Source: a virus. Taken from it: DNA of 37,150 nt. This document shows positions 11,036-36,316 of this stretch, one piece after another (within the stretch, counting starts at the first letter, position 1; every line of letters starts with the position of its first letter). The notes beneath the pieces are model-generated. The model did not search any database. It was not told where the DNA came from and saw only the letters and a list, made by a program, of their open reading frames with translations. Location: positions 1 through 37,150 of IMG/VR virus record IMGVR_UViG_3300035659_000058, one strand, 5' to 3'. A program made the translations under genes and the position numbers.

Positions 11036-12531
11036 TCGCGTACTACCTTATATGTCAAAAGGTTGTTCCCCTCATACTCAGCCGTTATTCTGTATGTGGC
11101 GATGACGTCGTACTCCGTCCCGACGTTCTCGGCACTTGAGTAGAGCCTTATCCTTGCGCTCGTCATTAGACCGCCTGTAAATTCCAGGTCGTCCATATAG
11201 TAGTTCTCGTTCGTGAGTCCCACCATGCGTCTCACAAGTTCATACACCATCGTATCGAGTTCCGCGTATGCAAACACCGTGTCTACGACCGTCGAGCAGA
11301 CGACCGTATCGCAGTCCACCATGTTGACTGCGATGGCGTAGACCGTATCCGTCAACTGGGGGACACCACTTACCGTCGTTCCCAAAAAGAGCAGATACGC
11401 TTCGAATGTCGAGTCTCCGATTGCGTGGGCCACAAGACTGTCCACCACAAGACTAGCGTTGGCAACGGTAAACGCACTCGCTGTCAAAGTTCTTGTCGCG
11501 TAGTTTGTCCACACGCTTTCCGCCTGTGCATTTCTGTTGTTGTCGGCCCGCGCAGAAAGCCAAATCGAGTCTCGCATTGCCTGGTAGGCTGCCGCCCTAC
11601 TTGGATGTGAGTTGTAGACCGTATCCCGTATCGTCTGGATATCACTTGTCGAGATCGTCATGGTACCGCTCACGGTCTTCTCGGCGAGCGGTTGAGCGAA
11701 CACCGAATCGCCGATTTCGCCGTACGTCGCCCTGGTGGTTGGGTAAGCATGGACGACGGTATCCCTTATCGCTGCACGTTCGCTCATCGTTAACGTCGCC
11801 GTCGGTATGCTCGTCACGGCCTTCGTCGCCACGTTCCACGCGTGTATCCCTACCGTATCGGCCCGGCCATCCTTCCATACCGTGTCTCTTATCGCCATCC
11901 TTTCGTCTACCGTAAGCGTACTGGCGGGTGTGCCGGTTACAACTCTGGTCGCGTAACCCACCCAGAGACTTTCTGCAAGATCGCTGTACCCCGCGCTTCT
12001 CGTCGGGTAGTCGTGGTAAATCGTATCTCTAATCGCCTGTCGTTCCGTAGTCGTAAGCGTCTTTGCAGCCGCAACAGACCCGTCAAGATTCCGGATATTC
12101 CCGTCTGCAAGATGGAGTGAGTCCACGGTCCACGAGTCGCTCGTCACTATCGTGAGACCTTGAATGGTGGTCTTGTATAGAACTTCCCCAAATCCGTAGG
12201 TCGTCTCTCCGCTACTCGCGTTCACCTTGCCGGAAACTCTTCCGGGTCTCGTAAGCCAGTAGCGAACGGTGGTTCCGCTCATCCCGGTGCTATCATAGAG
12301 TGTCCCATTCATATAGAAGTAGGCTTGAACCGTCGTGGGATTTTGTGGCGACGGCTGGCTGTCGTTAACTGCGTAGTGCCAATGGAGCGTATCCGTAGGA
12401 GCGCATGGCCCTAGATACGCCGTTGCCTTCCGTGGTTCACATCCCATGCGACCGAGTAAAAAGACGACCGTAGCCACGAGAAAGACAAACGCAATCGAAT
12501 AGACGATTGTTTGGTGTTTTTCACTCATCAT
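11032..12531 (-). CDS. Membrane-anchored repeat protein in the tail block, 499 aa
   Basis: ATG at 12529-12531 overlaps the upstream stop; a second ATG follows directly. Residues 9-27 are one hydrophobic segment and a Cys follows at 31, so the N-terminus is either a signal anchor or a poor lipoprotein signal. Residues about 160-352 contain four imperfect repeats of 42-60 residues beginning near 160, 205, 247 and 293, with the core (S/D)ER-AIRDTV and a YATRTLT-type end. The YATR-LT motif occurs in phage tail-fibre-like proteins. The C-terminal 150 residues are rich in DTV and beta-prone. Its position between exported protein 12528-13280 and the adaptor block suggests a surface or tail role. Confidence 0.8.
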   Translation of the reverse strand: MMSEKHQTIVYSIAFVFLVATVVFLLGRMGCEPRKATAYLGPCAPTDTLHWHYAVNDSQPSPQNPTTVQAYFYMNGTLYDSTGMSGTTVRYWLTRPGRVSGKVNASSGETTYGFGEVLYKTTIQGLTIVTSDSWTVDSLHLADGNIRNLDGSVAAAKTLTTTERQAIRDTIYHDYPTRSAGYSDLAESLWVGYATRVVTGTPASTLTVDERMAIRDTVWKDGRADTVGIHAWNVATKAVTSIPTATLTMSERAAIRDTVVHAYPTTRATYGEIGDSVFAQPLAEKTVSGTMTISTSDIQTIRDTVYNSHPSRAAAYQAMRDSIWLSARADNNRNAQAESVWTNYATRTLTASAFTVANASLVVDSLVAHAIGDSTFEAYLLFLGTTVSGVPQLTDTVYAIAVNMVDCDTVVCSTVVDTVFAYAELDTMVYELVRRMVGLTNENYYMDDLEFTGGLMTSARIRLYSSAENVGTEYDVIATYRITAEYEGNNLLTYKVVRE

Positions 12532-13280
12532 TTCGTGTCTCCGTATATCAACTGTTTTCGTAGCGGCCAGACGTCAGGGTTATCCGTAACGATGTCTCCC
12601 CACGTGCGCTTCCGCTCGCCTCCCACCACGTGGCCGTAGACGATGAGTGTGGGATCATTCGCCGTGTTCGCGTACTCCGTCATTCGGAATGTGAGGTAAT
12701 TGAATCCGCCGGCGCTGCAAACGAACTTCCACTGATCGGATGTTTCCGCGTGGATTAGAAAATCCGTGTACCCGGATGTGTTTATAAGCGTCGGGTTAAA
12801 GTAGAGATAGTTCCATCCAACCGAAAACTGTGCGTTGGAGAACAGAGTATCGCTTAAACCCCAACAAAGTGAATCCGTGACTACGAGAGGGTTCGACAGG
12901 CAGGAGGAGCGGACATCGACGTCTAGCCCCAGCGCCCAATCGTCCCCGACGCTCCCGGTCATGTAAATCCTGATCAGGCAACTATCAACAACAACGCCCG
13001 AAAGCGTGGACGTGTTGTAACTCAACGTGAGAATACTCCTCAAATAGTTCTCCGCGACCGCATCGTAGGACACTAGAACCGACCCTAGCGTGCCAGTCGT
13101 AACGACGGTGGATGTCTTCGTTCCCGTCGGGCAGTCAGTCTGCCACTTTGTGGTTATAACCCCGTCCTTGGTCCCCACGGAGTAAAACGGACCGTAGGTC
13201 GTCGCATTACCCAGCGATGCCGTCAGGCACAGGATCAGAAGGCAAACCGCAAGGGTCAGCCTTTTTCCTAGCTTCTGCAA
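12528..13280 (-). CDS. Exported beta-sandwich-like protein, 250 aa
   Basis: The only initiator available before the hydrophobic core is a TTG at 13278-13280, so the whole signal peptide (residues 1-26, core LTLAVCLLILCLTA, then SLGNA) is written inside the last 74 nt of the glycosyltransferase gene in another frame. No strong ribosome site is visible, so expression is probably by coupling. The mature part has alternating beta strands (YLRSILTLSYNTSTL, VVVDSCLIRIYMTGS, FLIHAETSDQWKFV, NYLTFRMTEY) of the kind seen in DNRLRE or carbohydrate-binding jelly rolls. Function unknown; adhesion or surface display is inferred. Confidence 0.7.
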   Translation of the reverse strand: MQKLGKRLTLAVCLLILCLTASLGNATTYGPFYSVGTKDGVITTKWQTDCPTGTKTSTVVTTGTLGSVLVSYDAVAENYLRSILTLSYNTSTLSGVVVDSCLIRIYMTGSVGDDWALGLDVDVRSSCLSNPLVVTDSLCWGLSDTLFSNAQFSVGWNYLYFNPTLINTSGYTDFLIHAETSDQWKFVCSAGGFNYLTFRMTEYANTANDPTLIVYGHVVGGERKRTWGDIVTDNPDVWPLRKQLIYGDTK

Positions 13281-20463: not shown

Positions 20464-20714
20464 TTCTTACCAAAGAGGTCTGGACTACGACGTTCGAAGT
20501 CCGCTTGTTTATCGCCCCAGTTGGCTCTCGCTTCGTTACACCTGGGGCAGAGCATCTCGTTTTCCTTGGGCCATGCCTCGTCTGGAATCGCGGGATCGCC
20601 CATGAGAACCATCGGCTGTTTACATACCCGACACGTGTACCACCTGCTTTTAAGCCCCATTTGCATCGGGTGGGCAAGTGTCTCTTTTTCGCCGCCGTTA
20701 CTGTCAGAGGTCAT
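20460..20714 (-). CDS. Small zinc-binding protein, 84 aa
   Basis: ATG at 20712-20714, overlapping the large-terminase stop by 11 nt. Two Cys pairs (CRVCKQP at about 28-34 and CPRCNEAR at about 56-63) form a zinc ribbon. The rest is polar and helical. It is coupled to the next gene by ATGA. Such ribbons next to terminases are sometimes HNH-related, but no HNH catalytic residues are seen here. Confidence 0.7.
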   Translation of the reverse strand: MTSDSNGGEKETLAHPMQMGLKSRWYTCRVCKQPMVLMGDPAIPDEAWPKENEMLCPRCNEARANWGDKQADFERRSPDLFGKK

Positions 20715-22290
20715 ACCACGTACCCTCGTTTCTACGGAAGTTGCCCGGCAAAACCAACTCTCCGGGCTTTGATTTCCTCATAGCGAGAGTTGCCGCGTCC
20801 CTTTCGAACTGTCGCGCTTCCTCTTCGCTCACAACCTTGCTCTCGCGTGATAGGCCCCTCGACATCTCGACTGCGAAAGCCAGGGCGTCTATGATGTCGT
20901 CATCGCCCAACGGAAAACGCAGCAACTGTTCTTCCAGGTCCGTCATCCCAACCCTGTGTTTTATCTGTCGTGCTTCGTATCTGGGTGCAAGGAGCCTTAT
21001 CCTGGCGCGTTTGGCGTCTGCGGAGGTGCCAGGTTTAAGTTCCTTCCTCACGACGTACGTATCTCTACGCTTTTCCTCTTCGCGTAGCCAGTACTCAAGC
21101 ACCTTGAAGCCGCCTACGAGCTCGATACCGATTCTCTTTAACCCCATGGGGCCGTATTGTGCCTGAACCCTGAAAATCTCTTCTATGAGACGTGTCGGGG
21201 TTATCCTCATCCCCTTTGCTTCCAAGAGTTGGCATGGCCCGATACCTGCACGAGCAAGTACGACAAGGCCGACCTTATCCGAATCTCGTTTCTCGCCTAC
21301 GGCGGGGTCGAAAGCAGCCACAATACCCGTTTTTGCGGGGAGATCGTCGAACTCGCCACTCCACGTCTCAAACCACTCGCCCTTAAACACCGCCGTTTCC
21401 GCGTCCATCACGAGGTTCCGGTACCAGTTTGCGAATCTATCGGCTCCTTGAGCGGCGCGTTCGGCTTCCAAGTACTCCGGAGTATAGAAACTATCGTACT
21501 CCGCCGTCTCGACCGAGTGTACGTCCTCAACGTCCCATCCGGTCGGGTGATCGAGCACGTACCCGTACAGATCGCCAAATGCGTAGCGCGTTCCGTCTAA
21601 GATCATAACGCTTGCCTTGTCTAGGAAGGCTGATAACTGGCGATGGTCGTCTAAAACCTTCAAATTCTGCTCTAAGGTCTCGGTGTTATGTTCACTCACG
21701 GGGTCGTCTGACACTATCAAATCAAAATGCCCGCCCGTTTCCGTCGTTCCGATGGCACCTGCGGTAAACGTAGCCTCCCTCATGCCTACGGCGGTGCGTG
21801 TGGCGATGATTAACTGCTTGTTTTCCCACTTGAGGCTCTTCGCGTCGCCTCGGAGGTTCCCATAAAGACCACGGAAGAGCGCGTTGTTCTCTATATGGTC
21901 GCGCAAAACCCGAAGCATGGGCTCTGCCTGCTTCTCCATCGTCTCGGAATGAAGTAGACACCTGATGTTTGGGTTATGCAACGCCAACCACAGAGGCAGG
22001 GAATGTGCGCAGACGGTCGTTTTCGACCATTTCCGGGGTTCTAAGATAAGCTTTTTTAGCGGTGCGGGCGGCGGCGTGGCTCCGGAACCAGGCCTCAAAT
22101 GCGCCGTCAAAACCTCCAATTTATGACAAAGACGTCCGTGAGGTACTTCCTGTAGCCACTTATACCCCAGAACGTGCTTTGCAAAGAAAAAGAGGCTTTT
22201 TAACCCCGCTTCCCTAGCTACCTGTAGACCCGAATCCTCCAGACTCAGTTTTCCGAGTGCGGATTTCGTTCTGCTCAATCTCGTACTCAC
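20704..22290 (-). CDS. terL: Terminase large subunit, 528 aa
   Basis: GTG at 22288-22290. The ATPase half shows LEPRKWSKTT (83-92) in the place of the Walker A loop, but without the usual Gly before Lys. Walker B is FDLIVSDDP (189-197, D195/D196), and a coupling motif LDGTRY lies at 231-236. The nuclease half has FDPAVG (D328), IGIELVGG (E390) and GDDDIIDALAF (about 462-471), the expected acidic triad of the RNase H-like headful or unit-length packaging nuclease. It is the motor that pumps and cuts DNA at the portal, and sits upstream of the portal in the operon. The P-loop is atypical, yet the overall motif order is convincing. Confidence 0.9.
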   Translation of the reverse strand: MSTRLSRTKSALGKLSLEDSGLQVAREAGLKSLFFFAKHVLGYKWLQEVPHGRLCHKLEVLTAHLRPGSGATPPPAPLKKLILEPRKWSKTTVCAHSLPLWLALHNPNIRCLLHSETMEKQAEPMLRVLRDHIENNALFRGLYGNLRGDAKSLKWENKQLIIATRTAVGMREATFTAGAIGTTETGGHFDLIVSDDPVSEHNTETLEQNLKVLDDHRQLSAFLDKASVMILDGTRYAFGDLYGYVLDHPTGWDVEDVHSVETAEYDSFYTPEYLEAERAAQGADRFANWYRNLVMDAETAVFKGEWFETWSGEFDDLPAKTGIVAAFDPAVGEKRDSDKVGLVVLARAGIGPCQLLEAKGMRITPTRLIEEIFRVQAQYGPMGLKRIGIELVGGFKVLEYWLREEEKRRDTYVVRKELKPGTSADAKRARIRLLAPRYEARQIKHRVGMTDLEEQLLRFPLGDDDIIDALAFAVEMSRGLSRESKVVSEEEARQFERDAATLAMRKSKPGELVLPGNFRRNEGTWYDL

Positions 22291-30048: not shown

Positions 30049-30240
30049 CTACTTTTTCAATCCGCGTTTCCGTTTCCACTCTTCACTTGTCATCGTGCTT
30101 TCTTCTTCTGTGCCAGGAAATATGGTTATCGAAACGCCATCCATTGAAAAGATTTTGTCTAGATTTTTGCGAAGCCGCGCTTGTGCTTCTGGACTCAATG
30201 CAGGCAAACTACTTTTATGACGTTGCATTTTCCTTGCCAT
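30049..30240 (-). CDS. Small basic protein, 63 aa
   Basis: ATG at 30238-30240 with GGAGGTAAC upstream, inside the last 46 nt of the sorting-domain-like gene. The helix SPEAQARLRKNLDKIFSMDG is followed by a beta segment (VSITIFPGTEEE) and a basic end (EEWKRKRGLKK). No family recognised. Confidence 0.6.
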   Translation of the reverse strand: MARKMQRHKSSLPALSPEAQARLRKNLDKIFSMDGVSITIFPGTEEESTMTSEEWKRKRGLKK

Positions 30241-30368
30241 GTTACCTCCACAAAGTAGATTCCAGCCTCGAGCGCTTGGTAGCGCACAACGGTTTTAGAG
30301 TTGGACGTCATGCGTACGTCGCTCACCCACACCAAGCGCCCAGTGACCGAGAACAGACCTATCTTCAC
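30195..30368 (-). CDS. Stand-alone T9SS sorting-domain-like protein, 57 aa
   Basis: GTG at 30366-30368 overlaps the preceding stop (GTGA), which marks it as a separate gene. The sequence reads MKIGLFSVTGRLVW..., with YQALEAGIYFVEV near 33-45 and KVVCLH at the end. This follows the last strands of the type IX secretion type A C-terminal domain (V-x-I-x-x-x-x-x-x-G-R-x-V ... L-x-x-G-I-Y-F-V-x-V ... K-V-V). The early part with the PNP motif is missing, and no cargo domain is attached. FlgD Ig-like domains share part of the pattern, so the family call is tentative. An export signal or a decoy for the host sorting machinery is inference. Confidence 0.6.
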   Translation of the reverse strand: MKIGLFSVTGRLVWVSDVRMTSNSKTVVRYQALEAGIYFVEVTWQGKCNVIKVVCLH

Positions 30369-30529
30369 TTGATCTTTGCTCCGATGTAAATCAGTTCCGA
30401 AAGAATCGAGCAAATCCCCGCCGCGATGAGCCACATCACAAACTCGTCTGTTCCCCACTTGGTCAGCGCTACTCCCATACATCCGAGACTCCCCACCGTT
30501 GCGAGAATCCCCTGTATCTTTTCCAGCAT
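30365..30529 (-). CDS. Small membrane protein, 54 aa
   Basis: ATG at 30527-30529 with GGAGGTTAGAG upstream; its TGA overlaps the next GTG. Two hydrophobic segments are visible (ILATVGSLGCMGVALT and FVMWLIAAGICSILSELIYI), separated by KWGTDE, then AKIK. Holin-like, or a small export/anchor protein. It sits between the exported FnIII gene and the sorting-domain-like gene, which makes a joint surface function worth considering. Confidence 0.65.
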   Translation of the reverse strand: MLEKIQGILATVGSLGCMGVALTKWGTDEFVMWLIAAGICSILSELIYIGAKIK

Positions 30530-30576
30530 CTCTAACCTCCACGTAAAACCAACCCTCGCAAGGATTCGGCCAGACT

Positions 30577-30963
30577 CTAACGCAAATCGTAGATGCGAAA
30601 GGGCGGCGTTACGTCTGCCACCACCTTCGTCGCTACGTTTGACCAGCCGGACCAGTTAGGTACCTCATCGGCGACCTTCACCATGAAATAATACATCGCT
30701 GGCGCTAGATCGCCCGTCCATATCACCTGAGTCGTTCCAGCGGGTAGGGGGACGGCTTCGCCCGCGCATTGCGTTGCCGTGGCAAACCAGTTGGCCGTAT
30801 CGCCTAATGCTGGCGCGGTCGTCTTGTAGCGCAAATCGTACTGCGATGCAGTCCCACTTGTGCTATCATCCCCACTTGCCGTGCAGGTCAGTGTAATCGG
30901 CGCGGCCTCACTCGCCGCCGCTAGGAGAATCAGAGCCAGAAAGGTTAGGAGAAGTTTCAACAT
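30577..30963 (-). CDS. Exported fibronectin type III protein, 128 aa
   Basis: The ATG at 30961-30963 starts a clear signal peptide (MLKLLLTFLALILLAAASEA); the whole signal sequence lies inside the previous gene in another frame. The mature part is one FnIII domain: ASQYDLRYKTTAP, then NWFATATQC, AGTTQVIWTGDLAPAMYYFM and VKVADEVPNWSGWSNVATKV. This matches FnIII units common in secreted proteins of Bacteroidota and related phyla. It ends VTPPFRIYDLR, which reads like the start of a further domain that is absent. It may be a fragment of a host secreted protein or a phage-made surface/adhesion protein. Confidence 0.8.
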   Translation of the reverse strand: MLKLLLTFLALILLAAASEAAPITLTCTASGDDSTSGTASQYDLRYKTTAPALGDTANWFATATQCAGEAVPLPAGTTQVIWTGDLAPAMYYFMVKVADEVPNWSGWSNVATKVVADVTPPFRIYDLR

Positions 30964-31298: not shown

Positions 31299-31715
31299 CT
31301 ATCCCTGGGAATTTTCCAGATTCTGTTCTGCCCATATCTCATCACACTCTTCCTTAAACTTGAACGACGAGGCCATTGGCACTGATATTCCTCTTTGCCT
31401 GAGCGCGCTGAGAATGCACGCCGGGCAGTCAGATGTTGCATCCCGTAGAGATTTCATCGAAGCGTTCACTGCCTTCACAAGCGGGTTAGTATCCGTCCAC
31501 GGGGCCTCATCCTCCCCCTTGAAATCCTTCGGGGCTGGCAATAGCATGACCAGATCACTGATCGGTTGTTGTTCCACCTCTAGAATTAAACACATCCGGC
31601 AAATACGATTGGGATTCATGGTGCAATGCTTCTCATGTTTTTCCATCGCGGGCTTAGAGCAGCCGGATTTCTTACAGAAATCACAATAATATCTATTGAC
31701 TTGTTTGATCTTCAT
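31299..31715 (-). CDS. Zinc-finger protein, 138 aa
   Basis: ATG at 31713-31715 overlaps the previous stop by 4 nt. The N-terminal YYCDFCKKSGCSKPAMEKHE followed by HCTMNPNRICRMC is a C2H2-like/Cys-rich zinc finger often found in phage early proteins. Further Cys (DCPACIL near 95-101). C-terminus is acidic and helical. It may bind DNA or RNA; the target is unknown. Confidence 0.7.
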   Translation of the reverse strand: MKIKQVNRYYCDFCKKSGCSKPAMEKHEKHCTMNPNRICRMCLILEVEQQPISDLVMLLPAPKDFKGEDEAPWTDTNPLVKAVNASMKSLRDATSDCPACILSALRQRGISVPMASSFKFKEECDEIWAEQNLENSQG

Positions 31716-31882
31716 CCCATGCCTTCGCGCATTGCTTCGCGTTCATCGGCAAACGCATCAAGTAGATTGTCCACGTCTTGCTCCGGTGCGCACTCATCGC
31801 AATATGGGTTGCCGCAAATCCACTCTGCGTCCGCGGGGTCTAACGGGCCGTCGCAAACTGCGCAAAACACAAGGTTACCCAT
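31712..31882 (-). CDS. Small zinc-ribbon protein, 56 aa
   Basis: ATG at 31880-31882 overlaps the repeat-protein stop by 8 nt, with GGAGCCC upstream. Starts MGNLVFCAVCDGPLDPADAE, then CGNPYCDECAPEQ; four or more Cys form a zinc ribbon. Short acidic helix at the end. No named family. Confidence 0.65.
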   Translation of the reverse strand: MGNLVFCAVCDGPLDPADAEWICGNPYCDECAPEQDVDNLLDAFADEREAMREGMG

Positions 31883-32621
31883 GCTCGGGCTCCATTTCTT
31901 CCGCGATTTTCGCCACGATTTCGTTGAACCGCGCTTTCTGCGCAGCCCAAGCCGCAGCCCAAGCCGCAGCCCAAGCCGCATCCCTAGCCACAGCCCTAGC
32001 CGCATCCGAAGCCGCAGCCCAAGCCACAGCCCTAGCCACAGCCCAAGCCGCATCCCTAGCCGCATCCCTAGCCGCATCCCTAGCCACAGCCCTAGCCACA
32101 GCCCAAGCCGCATCCGAAGCCGCAGCCCAAGCCGCATCCCTAGCCACAGCCCAAGCCGCATCCCAAGCCGCATCCCAATACGCACCCAGGTCCTCCCTTG
32201 TAGCCTGCCCTTGCGCGAATCTTTCCGCTGCGATGACGGCGTTTCGACTGCGCTCATCCGTGAGCAAATTCCACACCTTTCGGCTGTCATGGAGCGGCGT
32301 TTCTCGCACGCACCAACAGGCGAAAAGCCGCAATTCTTTCGTTGCATCGTATTGCCAGAGATGTTTGCGTTCACGGCACACGATTTTGTCCGTCTGCTCC
32401 TCGATCTCTCCCCGACATTCCACGTGTGAGAGGAGCGATCCTTGCGCATATTGGAGAGCGTCGAACGGGTCGCGGGATGCGTGCATGCCGTTCTTGCACA
32501 TGATGAGCGGACCTTCAGCGCGCATCCATTCGCCGACTATAACTTTCGGACGCTCGCCGAAATTGAGGCGCCCGTCATCAGCGCTAAAATGCCATGCAAG
32601 GATTTCGATGTCATCATTCAT
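31875..32621 (-). CDS. DUF7666-like protein with long Ala-rich repeat, 248 aa
   Basis: The start is the ATG at 32619-32621, which overlaps the previous gene by 8 nt and has AAGGAGAG upstream. Residues about 6-120 show ILAWHFSADDGRLNFGERPK, then CKNGMHASRDPFDALQYAQG, VECRGEI, DKIVCRERKHLWQYDATKEL and RLFACWCV. This pattern is typical of the DUF7666 family found in phages. Residues about 150-232 are an almost pure Ala/Trp/Arg/Asp repeat (DAAWDAAWAVARDAAWAAAS and so on), which predicts one very long helix. The remaining C-terminus returns to normal sequence. Function is unknown. Confidence 0.7.
   Translation of the reverse strand: MNDDIEILAWHFSADDGRLNFGERPKVIVGEWMRAEGPLIMCKNGMHASRDPFDALQYAQGSLLSHVECRGEIEEQTDKIVCRERKHLWQYDATKELRLFACWCVRETPLHDSRKVWNLLTDERSRNAVIAAERFAQGQATREDLGAYWDAAWDAAWAVARDAAWAAASDAAWAVARAVARDAARDAARDAAWAVARAVAWAAASDAARAVARDAAWAAAWAAAWAAQKARFNEIVAKIAEEMEPEHG
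31934..32187. repeat. Six/twelve-base minisatellite coding for an Ala-rich helix
   Basis: About 250 nt are built from units such as AGCCGCATCCCT, AGCCACAGCCCA and AGCCGCAGCCCA, a 6-base period grouped in twelves. All six frames lack stops over most of this stretch, which creates false long frames on the plus strand. Repeat number changes keep the reading frame, so the helix length can vary. Confidence 0.85.
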
Positions 32622-32853
32622 CCTTGATCTCTCCTTCCTCCGGTGGCTTACACCACCCTCTCCAGCCGCCGTGATGCTCCGCCACACAGTGATCGTTTTT
32701 GCAATACCAGTACCAGCGTTGTGTGCCGTCGGTCACTTGCTCCCTATCCATTTGTTCCTTGCAATGCGGGCAATCGGCTTCGCTTGCATAGTATGCCACG
32801 TTCCAATCCCAGCCGTGCTCACGCAAGAGTTTGTTGGCAAGCTCGGGTGTCAT
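32614..32853 (-). CDS. Small zinc-finger protein, 79 aa
   Basis: ATG at 32851-32853 overlaps the previous stop by 4 nt. Two Cys pairs (CPHCKEQ near 28-34 and YCKNDHCVAEHH near 50-61), with Trp-rich flanks, suggest a zinc finger. A short C-terminal acidic tail overlaps the next gene by 8 nt. Function unknown. Confidence 0.65.
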   Translation of the reverse strand: MTPELANKLLREHGWDWNVAYYASEADCPHCKEQMDREQVTDGTQRWYWYCKNDHCVAEHHGGWRGWCKPPEEGEIKDE

Positions 32854-33665
32854 AGGAGCTTCCCCTCTTTCTGCTTACCCTCGCAAACCACACAGGTCAG
32901 TTGCCCACTAGCGTCTTTGATGAGCGCAGCCCCGCACGTTTTGCATAGGGGGAACTTATCGTCCGTAGGCGCTTCACTTGTTGCGGCGGGTTCCTCTTGC
33001 TTCTCATCCTTCAAAAGGGTGAGCCAATCGTCCTCCCACATAATGAACAAGTTAAATTGTGGGTTCTTCGCGTCCTTGCATTTCTCACAGCGATAAAACC
33101 ACTTACCAGCATTGGGGGACACATTCCCCTCTTTGTTTGGCCTATCCGATACCTGCTTCTTGACACCAGGCCGCCTACATTCATGGCAGAGTGGAACCTC
33201 TGAGGGCGAGGGTTCTGCCTTTCCATCAGTCTTTCCGGCACGTTCTTCGCTTCCCTCTTTGTCGGGGTCATCACCCGTTTCGATGCAGAAGGTTTGACGT
33301 AGGGCATATTTGTAGGCTCCCGTCATCGCTTTATTTGCTGATTTATCGCCAGCATCAGACCCTTCCCCGACTGCTTGTGTGTCTACCCATGTCCCAGACG
33401 GCGCATGGGCAAACCGAACGATTGCGATCAATCGGATATTCACCATCGGCGTCCCACCTTTGGTCGTGTACACCTCACGTTGGACATCTCGCATTTCGAG
33501 TACATGGCAATAGATTCCATGCTCGACCATCGCCGGACGAAGGGCTGCAATCAATGCGGCTTCGCCCGCAAAGGTGTAATCTAGCCGCGCATTCCGTTCC
33601 TTCTTGACGTACCCAACCTCGCCCATGACGGCGGCGATTGCCTCATGTATGTTCTTGTGTTCCAT
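32850..33665 (-). CDS. ERF-type single-strand annealing protein with zinc fingers, 271 aa
   Basis: ATG at 33663-33665. Residues 1-130 follow the ERF family: IHEAIAAVMGEVGYVKKERN, YTFAGEAALIAALRP, EHGIYCHVLE, then AHAPSGTWVDTQAVGEGSDA, GDKSANKAMTGAYKYALRQT. ERF proteins anneal complementary single strands and drive phage recombination. Two zinc segments are added at the C-terminus: 160-210 (CHEC, NAGKWFYRCEKCKDAKNPQF, FIMW) in a GRF-finger-like order, and 241-261 (CKTC and CVVC). The GRF-like part could help bind single-stranded DNA. The fusion is seen directly; its precise family membership would need a search. Confidence 0.8.
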   Translation of the reverse strand: MEHKNIHEAIAAVMGEVGYVKKERNARLDYTFAGEAALIAALRPAMVEHGIYCHVLEMRDVQREVYTTKGGTPMVNIRLIAIVRFAHAPSGTWVDTQAVGEGSDAGDKSANKAMTGAYKYALRQTFCIETGDDPDKEGSEERAGKTDGKAEPSPSEVPLCHECRRPGVKKQVSDRPNKEGNVSPNAGKWFYRCEKCKDAKNPQFNLFIMWEDDWLTLLKDEKQEEPAATSEAPTDDKFPLCKTCGAALIKDASGQLTCVVCEGKQKEGKLL

Positions 33666-35246: not shown

Positions 35247-35801
35247 CTAGTTCGCTGGGAAAAGTCCTCTCGGCGTTTGTCCGCCAGCTCCTGCACGTGT
35301 AGGCAGTGCCGTCGATGCGCCTAGTTTGACGTACAGTTGAGCCACGATCCCGTAGAACATCTGCTTTGTCGCTGGTATGTACGATACGTAAGGCCCAACC
35401 GTCAACAGGGTTGCGTCCTCGATGGGTTTCGAGAGTCCCGCTGAAAGTTTCGGGCCCCCGTGAATCATGTCGTCTAGGACAATCGCGTCGGCTCCAGCCA
35501 TGATAAACGGCCTCGGCAAAAGCGCATTCCTTCCGAACATATACCCCACACCAAATGCTCCGTGGGATGGTGATGGTTCCAGGGGATCCCCCGTCGCCAA
35601 CGGGAACTGAGTTCCCATGTTGAACAACCAGTTTTCCGTGTATATGAGCGTTCCCAGGTCGATGCCGGTGCTGGTACTCGTCACCGTTCCGTTCGTAGCC
35701 ACCCCACTTAGACTTGCCCCAACCGTAAGTGCCTTCTGGCTTGCGCAGCATGGCATCGCCACCAAAAGCAGAATCACGGCCACAAGAATCGTTCTAGTCA
35801 T
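35247..35801 (-). CDS. Exported barrel-like protein in the lysis cassette, 184 aa
   Basis: The ATG at 35799-35801 overlaps the amidase stop (ATGA) and follows GGAGGAGATC. Residues 1-20 form a signal peptide (MTRTILVAVILLLVAMPCCA); a Cys pair near its end leaves a weak lipoprotein option. The mature part has alternating beta segments with Gly/aromatic residues (TGIDLGTLIYTENWLFNMGT, GAFGVGYMFGRN, PKLSAGLSKPIEDATLLTVG, MFYGIVAQLYVKLGAS), as in small outer-membrane barrels. In a lysis cassette it could help disrupt the outer membrane in place of spanins. That function is inference. Confidence 0.65.
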   Translation of the reverse strand: MTRTILVAVILLLVAMPCCASQKALTVGASLSGVATNGTVTSTSTGIDLGTLIYTENWLFNMGTQFPLATGDPLEPSPSHGAFGVGYMFGRNALLPRPFIMAGADAIVLDDMIHGGPKLSAGLSKPIEDATLLTVGPYVSYIPATKQMFYGIVAQLYVKLGASTALPTRAGAGGQTPRGLFPAN

Positions 35802-36316
35802 CCGATCTCCTCCTCTATCATCCCGTAGAAGCGATCCCACGGGAAGAGTTTACCGGGGCACGTCCTTCCGTCGTTGGCATAGTACGCGTGCCCCTTAACC
35901 GCGTCTATGCTCAAGTCGTACCGATACATTACCGGCACGATTATCCTTCGGACAGCCACGAGCAACTGCAAGTCTGGGGGCGGCGCCAGATCAAAGTTCC
36001 CGATGAAGCAAAGTCCAAAACTTTTATCGTTCATGTCTCCCTGCGGACAGTGACCGCCCACCCACGTTTCGGGACGACCCACGATGATCTCATAATAGCG
36101 ATCCACGAGTTCAGAGTAGGCGTGGTACCCGTCCAGGTCCATCGGGTGAGCCAACCAACGCGACCAGGGGACGAGCCCCATGTGGTCCAGCGTGATGTCG
36201 TCCTTGGTCAACGTCACGCCATCAGTCGTGAGGCTATGGTGTAGCACCACCGCCTTGATCTTATTCTCCCCGATGTGGTGGCTCTTGCCTCTATCGGGAA
36301 TTACTACAACCGGCAT
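35798..36316 (-). CDS. N-acetylmuramoyl-L-alanine amidase endolysin, 172 aa
   Basis: ATG at 36314-36316 with AAGAGGTACC upstream. Amidase_2/PGRP-like domain: VVLHHSLT (H26/H27), GYHAY, then GHCPQGDMNDKSFGLCFIGN, and KGHAYYANDGRTCPG with H143 and C153 as the remaining zinc ligands. It cleaves the amide bond between MurNAc and L-Ala in peptidoglycan to release the phage. There is no signal peptide, so a holin or similar pore is expected. It is coupled to the exported barrel-like gene by ATGA. Confidence 0.9.
   Translation of the reverse strand: MPVVVIPDRGKSHHIGENKIKAVVLHHSLTTDGVTLTKDDITLDHMGLVPWSRWLAHPMDLDGYHAYSELVDRYYEIIVGRPETWVGGHCPQGDMNDKSFGLCFIGNFDLAPPPDLQLLVAVRRIIVPVMYRYDLSIDAVKGHAYYANDGRTCPGKLFPWDRFYGMIEEEIG

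Follow-up and report, generated by a model that had tools for sequence, protein, structure and literature searches.

A putative phage cargo of the type IX secretion system encoded in two reading frames, with a predicted membrane-protein gene nested in its sorting domain

How does a phage come to carry a 57-residue ORF that resembles the end of a type IX secretion system (T9SS) cargo, and is this ORF a gene in its own right? The question arises from the window, i.e., the whole 37,150-base IMG/VR phage record IMGVR_UViG_3300035659_000058, in which three successive ORFs lie on the minus strand, surrounded by small genes near genes of the DNA-metabolism type and away from the structural genes. The original prediction described these ORFs as an exported FnIII protein, a membrane protein, and a free-standing gene for a type A C-terminal sorting domain (CTD), for which a decoy role was proposed. 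All three were found where they had been placed, as was the GTGA overlap between the last two, and their likeness to a dismembered secreted protein was borne out, the first half of the CTD lying upstream of the membrane gene in the same frame as the second. The locus comprises the following features.

30577..30963, minus strand: secreted ORF, 128 aa, with its TAG stop at 30577-30579
30195..30608, minus strand: whole open CTD frame, +1 relative to the secreted ORF
30597..30603, minus strand: CCC_TTT_C heptamer, the proposed +1 slip site, holding the sole codons of the overlap that re-pair after a +1 slip
30528..30581, minus strand: predicted sorting domain, first part, VRVWPNPCEGWFYVEVRD, with the YPNP-type motif
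30535..30540, minus strand: GGAGGT, putative ribosome site of the membrane gene, which doubles as VEV codons of the CTD frame
30366..30527, minus strand: insert in the CTD frame, 54 codons, a predicted loop between the two domain parts
30365..30529, minus strand: predicted nested membrane-protein gene, 54 aa, with two hydrophobic stretches
30195-30368, minus strand: 57-residue ORF of the original prediction, with a GTG start and a GTGA overlap with the membrane ORF
30195..30365, minus strand: predicted sorting domain, second part, KIGLFSVTGRLVW...GIYFVEV...IKVVCLH, i.e., the 57-residue ORF minus its GTG codon
30049..30240, minus strand: following gene, 63 aa, its beginning overlapping the final 15 codons of the CTD frame; a neighbour, outside the cargo

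Membership in the CTD families was judged by the curated model cut-offs (27 bits for PF18962 and 23 bits for TIGR04183). Taken alone, the 57-residue ORF passes TIGR04183 (24.2 bits) but stays below the PF18962 cut-off (23.8 bits), and its profile matches cover positions 23-72 only. The whole CTD frame passes both models (30.3 bits for PF18962 and 25.5 bits for TIGR04183), and when all six frames of the entire record were searched with PF18962, this locus was the single match (E=5.3e-7). The type A pattern recognised earlier is thus supported by profile search, in part for the ORF and in full for the frame. When the frame is read upstream without assuming the GTG start, it remains open through the membrane ORF to 30608 and reaches RRPFASTICVRVWPNPCEGWFYVEVRD, a YPNP-type first domain part, ahead of the first upstream stop; this part, in the +1 frame, sets in at the end of the signal-peptide ORF. 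In the window, as in a sister phage, the N-terminal YPNP-type motif and the C-terminal strands share one frame and stand at its C-terminus (VRVWPNP/IKVVCLH-stop and IRVYPNP/VKLVSLK-stop, respectively). A phmmer search against solved structures gave one weak match (E=0.6), the 75-residue chain 8glk_D, with which the two CTD halves align separately; 8GLK belongs to the depositions of a T9SS translocon study (PMC10994853). Because the two parts are contiguous in this chain, the domain of the window appears to be complete but to have a 54-codon insert between its parts. Structure prediction gave a divided answer: AlphaFold modelled the CTD frame with the seven strands expected and an unstructured loop for the insert, but the confidence of this model is low (pLDDT 45), and a Foldseek search with this low-confidence model returned no match. 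On profile and motif evidence, the window is predicted to carry a complete T9SS type A CTD that is not free-standing.

Whether the 57-residue ORF has a start of its own can be judged from the sister phage (IMGVR_UViG_3300032046_000087; 38,056 bases, another metagenome), which shares 80-95% DNA identity with much of the window. Its locus (L007, with the CTD frame at L007:1252-1656) has the order secreted ORF, TAG, IRVYPNPVTGKTFYVEVRD in the +1 frame, an insert with an off-frame membrane ORF of 36 codons, and then KIALFDIRGRLAW...GAGIWFVCLDGNCVKLVSLK. The first CTD part (IRVYPNP...FYVEVRD) here again follows the stop of the secreted ORF in the +1 frame, and frames, order, and insertion point are the same in both phages. 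The GTG that starts the 57-residue ORF of the window is GGG in the sister phage, and thus what the two phages have in common is the frame but not the free-standing gene. With the N-terminal portion that the ORF lacks found upstream, a separate gene with a separate start was not confirmed. The decoy role is not supported either: the ORF appears to be the second half of a conserved frame, and a 57-residue piece lacking the signal peptide and the first strands would not be expected to leave the cytoplasm.

It might still be argued that the CTD frame is translated unfused, be it in full from a non-canonical start, by re-initiation after the TAG, or as the 57-residue piece from the coupled GTG, serving as a decoy or binding partner. 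The GTGA overlap in the window fits this explanation, as does an in-frame GTG far upstream in the CTD frame of the sister phage (position 1252), from which independent initiation is possible in that phage; moreover, selection on the frame alone does not tell how the frame is translated. However, in addition to the replacement of GTG by GGG, no start codon before WPNP/YPNP is common to both phages (ahead of WPNP, the CTD frame of the window contains neither a signal peptide nor a canonical start), and a product without a signal peptide is not expected at the T9SS, the cargo of which requires Sec export first (PMC12618676). Unfused translation is therefore considered quite improbable.

The locus is known from two phage species, and conservation here refers to one sequence pair. 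Within this pair, the second CTD part is 46% identical (E=1.5e-4), as against 80% in the neighbour gene, and the CTD of the sister phage, scored alone, lies under both cut-offs (15.1 bits for TIGR04183 and 12.7 bits for PF18962). In a protein-guided alignment, differences at codon positions 1/2/3 amount to 4/4/10 for the first domain part and to 20/18/34 for the second; an unguided DNA alignment of both parts together gives 26/23/40 (one-sided Fisher p=0.0015). Approximately 130 codons are stop-free in the CTD frame of both phages, the diverged insert included, and the motif residues are kept. These signs are moderate and mutually consistent, and they suggest, from one phage pair, that the CTD frame is under purifying selection. 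The same data bear on the possibility that the locus is a decaying remnant, i.e., that an ancestral signal-peptide-FnIII-CTD gene was broken in the common ancestor by a frameshift and the insertion of a membrane gene, and that its halves are not expressed as a signal. Decay would account simply for the frame break and the insertion, and it is in keeping with both the weak scores of the sister CTD and the low identity of the domain relative to the neighbour gene. It fits poorly, however, with the third-position bias in both CTD halves, with a frame that stays open through a diverged insert, and with the retention of the motif residues and of a slip-prone heptamer, and we regard it as unlikely. 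A sequencing or assembly indel at the junction would also produce a frame break, and indels do occur in metagenome assemblies; yet the same +1 relation recurs in a diverged contig of a different metagenome, and the second CTD half and most of the insert are 100% identical in a separate contig, which leaves such an artefact with a negligible likelihood.

To what, then, would the sorting domain be attached? The signal-peptide-like start sits on the upstream ORF only, in a frame other than that of the CTD, and fusion requires a +1 shift. The N-terminus of the secreted ORF (MLKLLLTFLALILLAAASEAAP) resembles a signal peptide as judged by eye, and this region is strongly conserved between the two phages, whereas the body (approximately 45% DNA identity) is nearly unalignable and has no codon-position bias. 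To judge from these sequences, a fast-diverging body behind a conserved signal peptide is what would be expected of an exposed part that changes fast. The FnIII assignment is weak: a Pfam search of the ORF gave no match, a two-sequence profile matched domain 1k85 of chitinase A1 weakly (E=0.019), and the fold model was of low confidence and uninformative, with no fold matches.

In both phages, the CTD frame is +1 to the secreted ORF and overlaps its end. The only codons in this overlap that allow re-pairing upon a +1 slip are CCC and TTT, both in CCC_TTT_C. The heptamer is identical in the two phages and forms the longest identical run in the aligned FnIII-like body; in-frame CCC_TTT occurs twice in 7,784 codons. 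CCC_UUU_C sits a few codons ahead of the TAG of the secreted ORF, and the trans-frame junction sequence lies around TPPFASTICVRVWPNP. The slip site has no A-site stop codon, the TAG being several codons further on; slippage at the TAG itself was rejected, as the preceding CGT/CAT cannot re-pair. Many known +1 frameshift sites contain a stimulatory element. Beside the slip site, RNA structure did not go beyond that of shuffles, and no upstream Shine-Dalgarno-like element was found, for which reason our confidence in frameshifting is lowered. Nevertheless, +1 frameshifting appears to be the best-supported way in which the CTD may be joined to the secreted ORF. Programmed +1 frameshifting on CCC_U has been described for the cps and tsh genes of Listeria phage PSA, and tailed phages append Ig-like domains via frameshifting (PMC5009743). 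The window is alike in that a CCC_U +1 shift would add a C-terminal extension and in that a predicted Ig-like beta domain lies out of frame; the known products, however, are virion proteins, whereas the extension proposed here would be a signal for export, added by a predicted shift. Furthermore, CCC_UUU_CGC of the window would re-pair UUU to UUC before a CGN codon, as in the UCC_UUU_CGU class of +1 sites (UUU_CGN) described in eukaryotic systems (PMC3498833), whereas the next codon in the sister phage is CCG.

The insert between the domain parts reads hydrophilic in the CTD frame and is open in that frame in both phages, the chance of which, given the nested protein, is 0.14 for the window and 0.30 for the sister phage. 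The nested membrane ORF differs between them in sequence and in length (54 codons, 165 bases, in the window vs. 36 codons, 111 bases, in the sister phage); since the length difference is a multiple of three, both frames survive. Its maximal 19-residue hydropathy is 2.02 in the window and 2.64 in the sister phage, compared with a maximum of 0.91 among off-frame ORFs of similar length in the other genes of the phage (n=46), only one of which has a ribosome-site-like motif. The ribosome site and start of the nested gene (TACGTGGAGGTKAGAGATG) are near-identical in the two phages. We therefore take the predicted membrane gene inside the CTD loop to be real. A comparable layout is found in the Rz/Rz1 spanin genes of phage lambda, in which the gene for a small membrane-associated protein is nested out of frame in an envelope-directed gene; there is no sequence relation, however, and the nested gene of the window lies in a sorting-domain loop. 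The GGAGGT ribosome site of the next gene (30049-30240) again encodes the VEV of a CTD strand. The insert falls exactly between parts that are adjacent in known CTDs, and one could thus imagine that ribosomes bypass it or that it is spliced out of the RNA, yielding an uninterrupted sorting domain. With the frame open through the insert, such skipping is unnecessary; moreover, no intron-like features were noticed, and the two inserts are unlike in length and sequence, all of which makes it very improbable.

IMG/VR was scanned with the terminase and the capsid protein as well as with the CTD and the membrane ORF; the matches were the phage's own near-identical contigs and the one sister phage, to which the capsid-protein scan added one remote relative; an extra contig from an IMG/VR scan with the ribosome-site motif (L043) was discarded as a chance match inside an exonuclease-like gene. 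A tblastn search of phage records with the 57-residue ORF gave matches at chance level only, bacterial genome contigs searched with the neighbour gene and the CTD frame yielded no relatives, and a plasmid search with the region yielded no match. None of 28 other phages with the neighbouring gene 31299-31715 has the CTD, and the secreted ORF is absent from all seven of these that were tested. The shared gene (minus strand) is cysteine-rich (CDFCKKSGCSK...CTMNPNRICRMC), occurs in 28 other IMG/VR phage contigs, and has a counterpart in Iodobacter phage PhiPLPE (35% identity); it appears to represent a widespread, uncharacterised phage family. The product of the gene at 31875-32687 (minus strand) has a long tail of WDAAWAVARDAA-type repeats; the repeat also keeps long ORFs open in other frames (31712-32449 on the minus strand; 31626-32429 and 31696-33096 on the plus strand). 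Elsewhere in the window, signal-peptide-like N-termini were noted by eye in the genes at 327-1250 (at an internal Met), 1097-1885, 12528-13280, and 35247-35840 (minus strand); several such genes are unusual for a tailed phage, and two have a tail-fibre-like 'WYN...L.Y.DG' motif at their end. Phages of methane-cycling archaea are among the closest named relatives of the terminase (20704-22290, minus strand), namely ANMV-1 virus (27%) and Caudoviricetes sp. vir526 (25%), and its lineage seems to be deep, without close cultured relatives.

On balance, it seems probable that the locus encodes one phage T9SS cargo in two frames joined by a +1 frameshift, together with a membrane gene nested in the CTD loop. 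The secreted ORF, comprising a signal peptide and a variable domain, would be translated first, and most ribosomes would stop at the TAG to give a periplasmic protein. Some ribosomes would slip +1 on CCC_UUU_C and continue in the CTD frame, so that the shifted copies gain a type A sorting domain that includes a long loop; these tagged copies could then cross the outer membrane via the host T9SS to the surface or the outside. The small membrane protein would be made within the loop, in the other frame, from its own GGAGGT-ATG. Compared with known T9SS type A CTDs (TIGR04183/PF18962, Por_Secre_tail), the domain of the window has both parts in order, a YPNP-type motif, a GxYxxxV-type strand, and a position at the extreme C-terminus, but it is out of frame with the signal peptide and has a 54-codon loop insert that holds another gene.

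We infer T9SS export, a surface role, and an FCB-group host, as well as the function of the protein; the host group, suggested by the CTD, is plausible. Given that the locus lies away from the structural genes, a virion part is a poorer fit than a surface role during infection, e.g., the masking of receptors to prevent superinfection. The most likely role would be that of a surface-displayed or released infection-time protein, with a periplasmic form supplied by non-shifting ribosomes. Cryophage likewise encodes T9SS cargo, its cargo genes are the variable ones, with cargo parts highly variable between phage variants, and superinfection exclusion has been proposed (PMC7468147). As described there, however, the cargo genes (endoglucanase, GH39, PA14) are ordinary genes with a sorting domain, and neither a frame change nor a nested gene is reported. 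T9SS sorting domains are also present in ORFs of crAss-like phages, but these are large gut phages in which the domain shares one ORF with BACON domains (PMC6949934). Phage T9SS cargo and frameshift-added Ig-like domains are thus known separately, whereas no report of their combination was found.

It is close to an even chance that the +1 frameshift acts as a location switch, the protein being periplasmic without the signal and surface-bound or released with the T9SS signal, while the loop doubles as a membrane-protein gene. If this is true, recoding would pick the cellular address of a protein rather than a virion variant, and a sorting domain would tolerate a whole second gene in one loop, which would provide a natural test of how far a T9SS CTD can change and still work. 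Gene callers dismember such proteins, as illustrated by the 57-residue ORF, which resembles an orphan gene and appears to be half of an out-of-frame domain. Finally, the use of the host T9SS by phages during infection would gain support.
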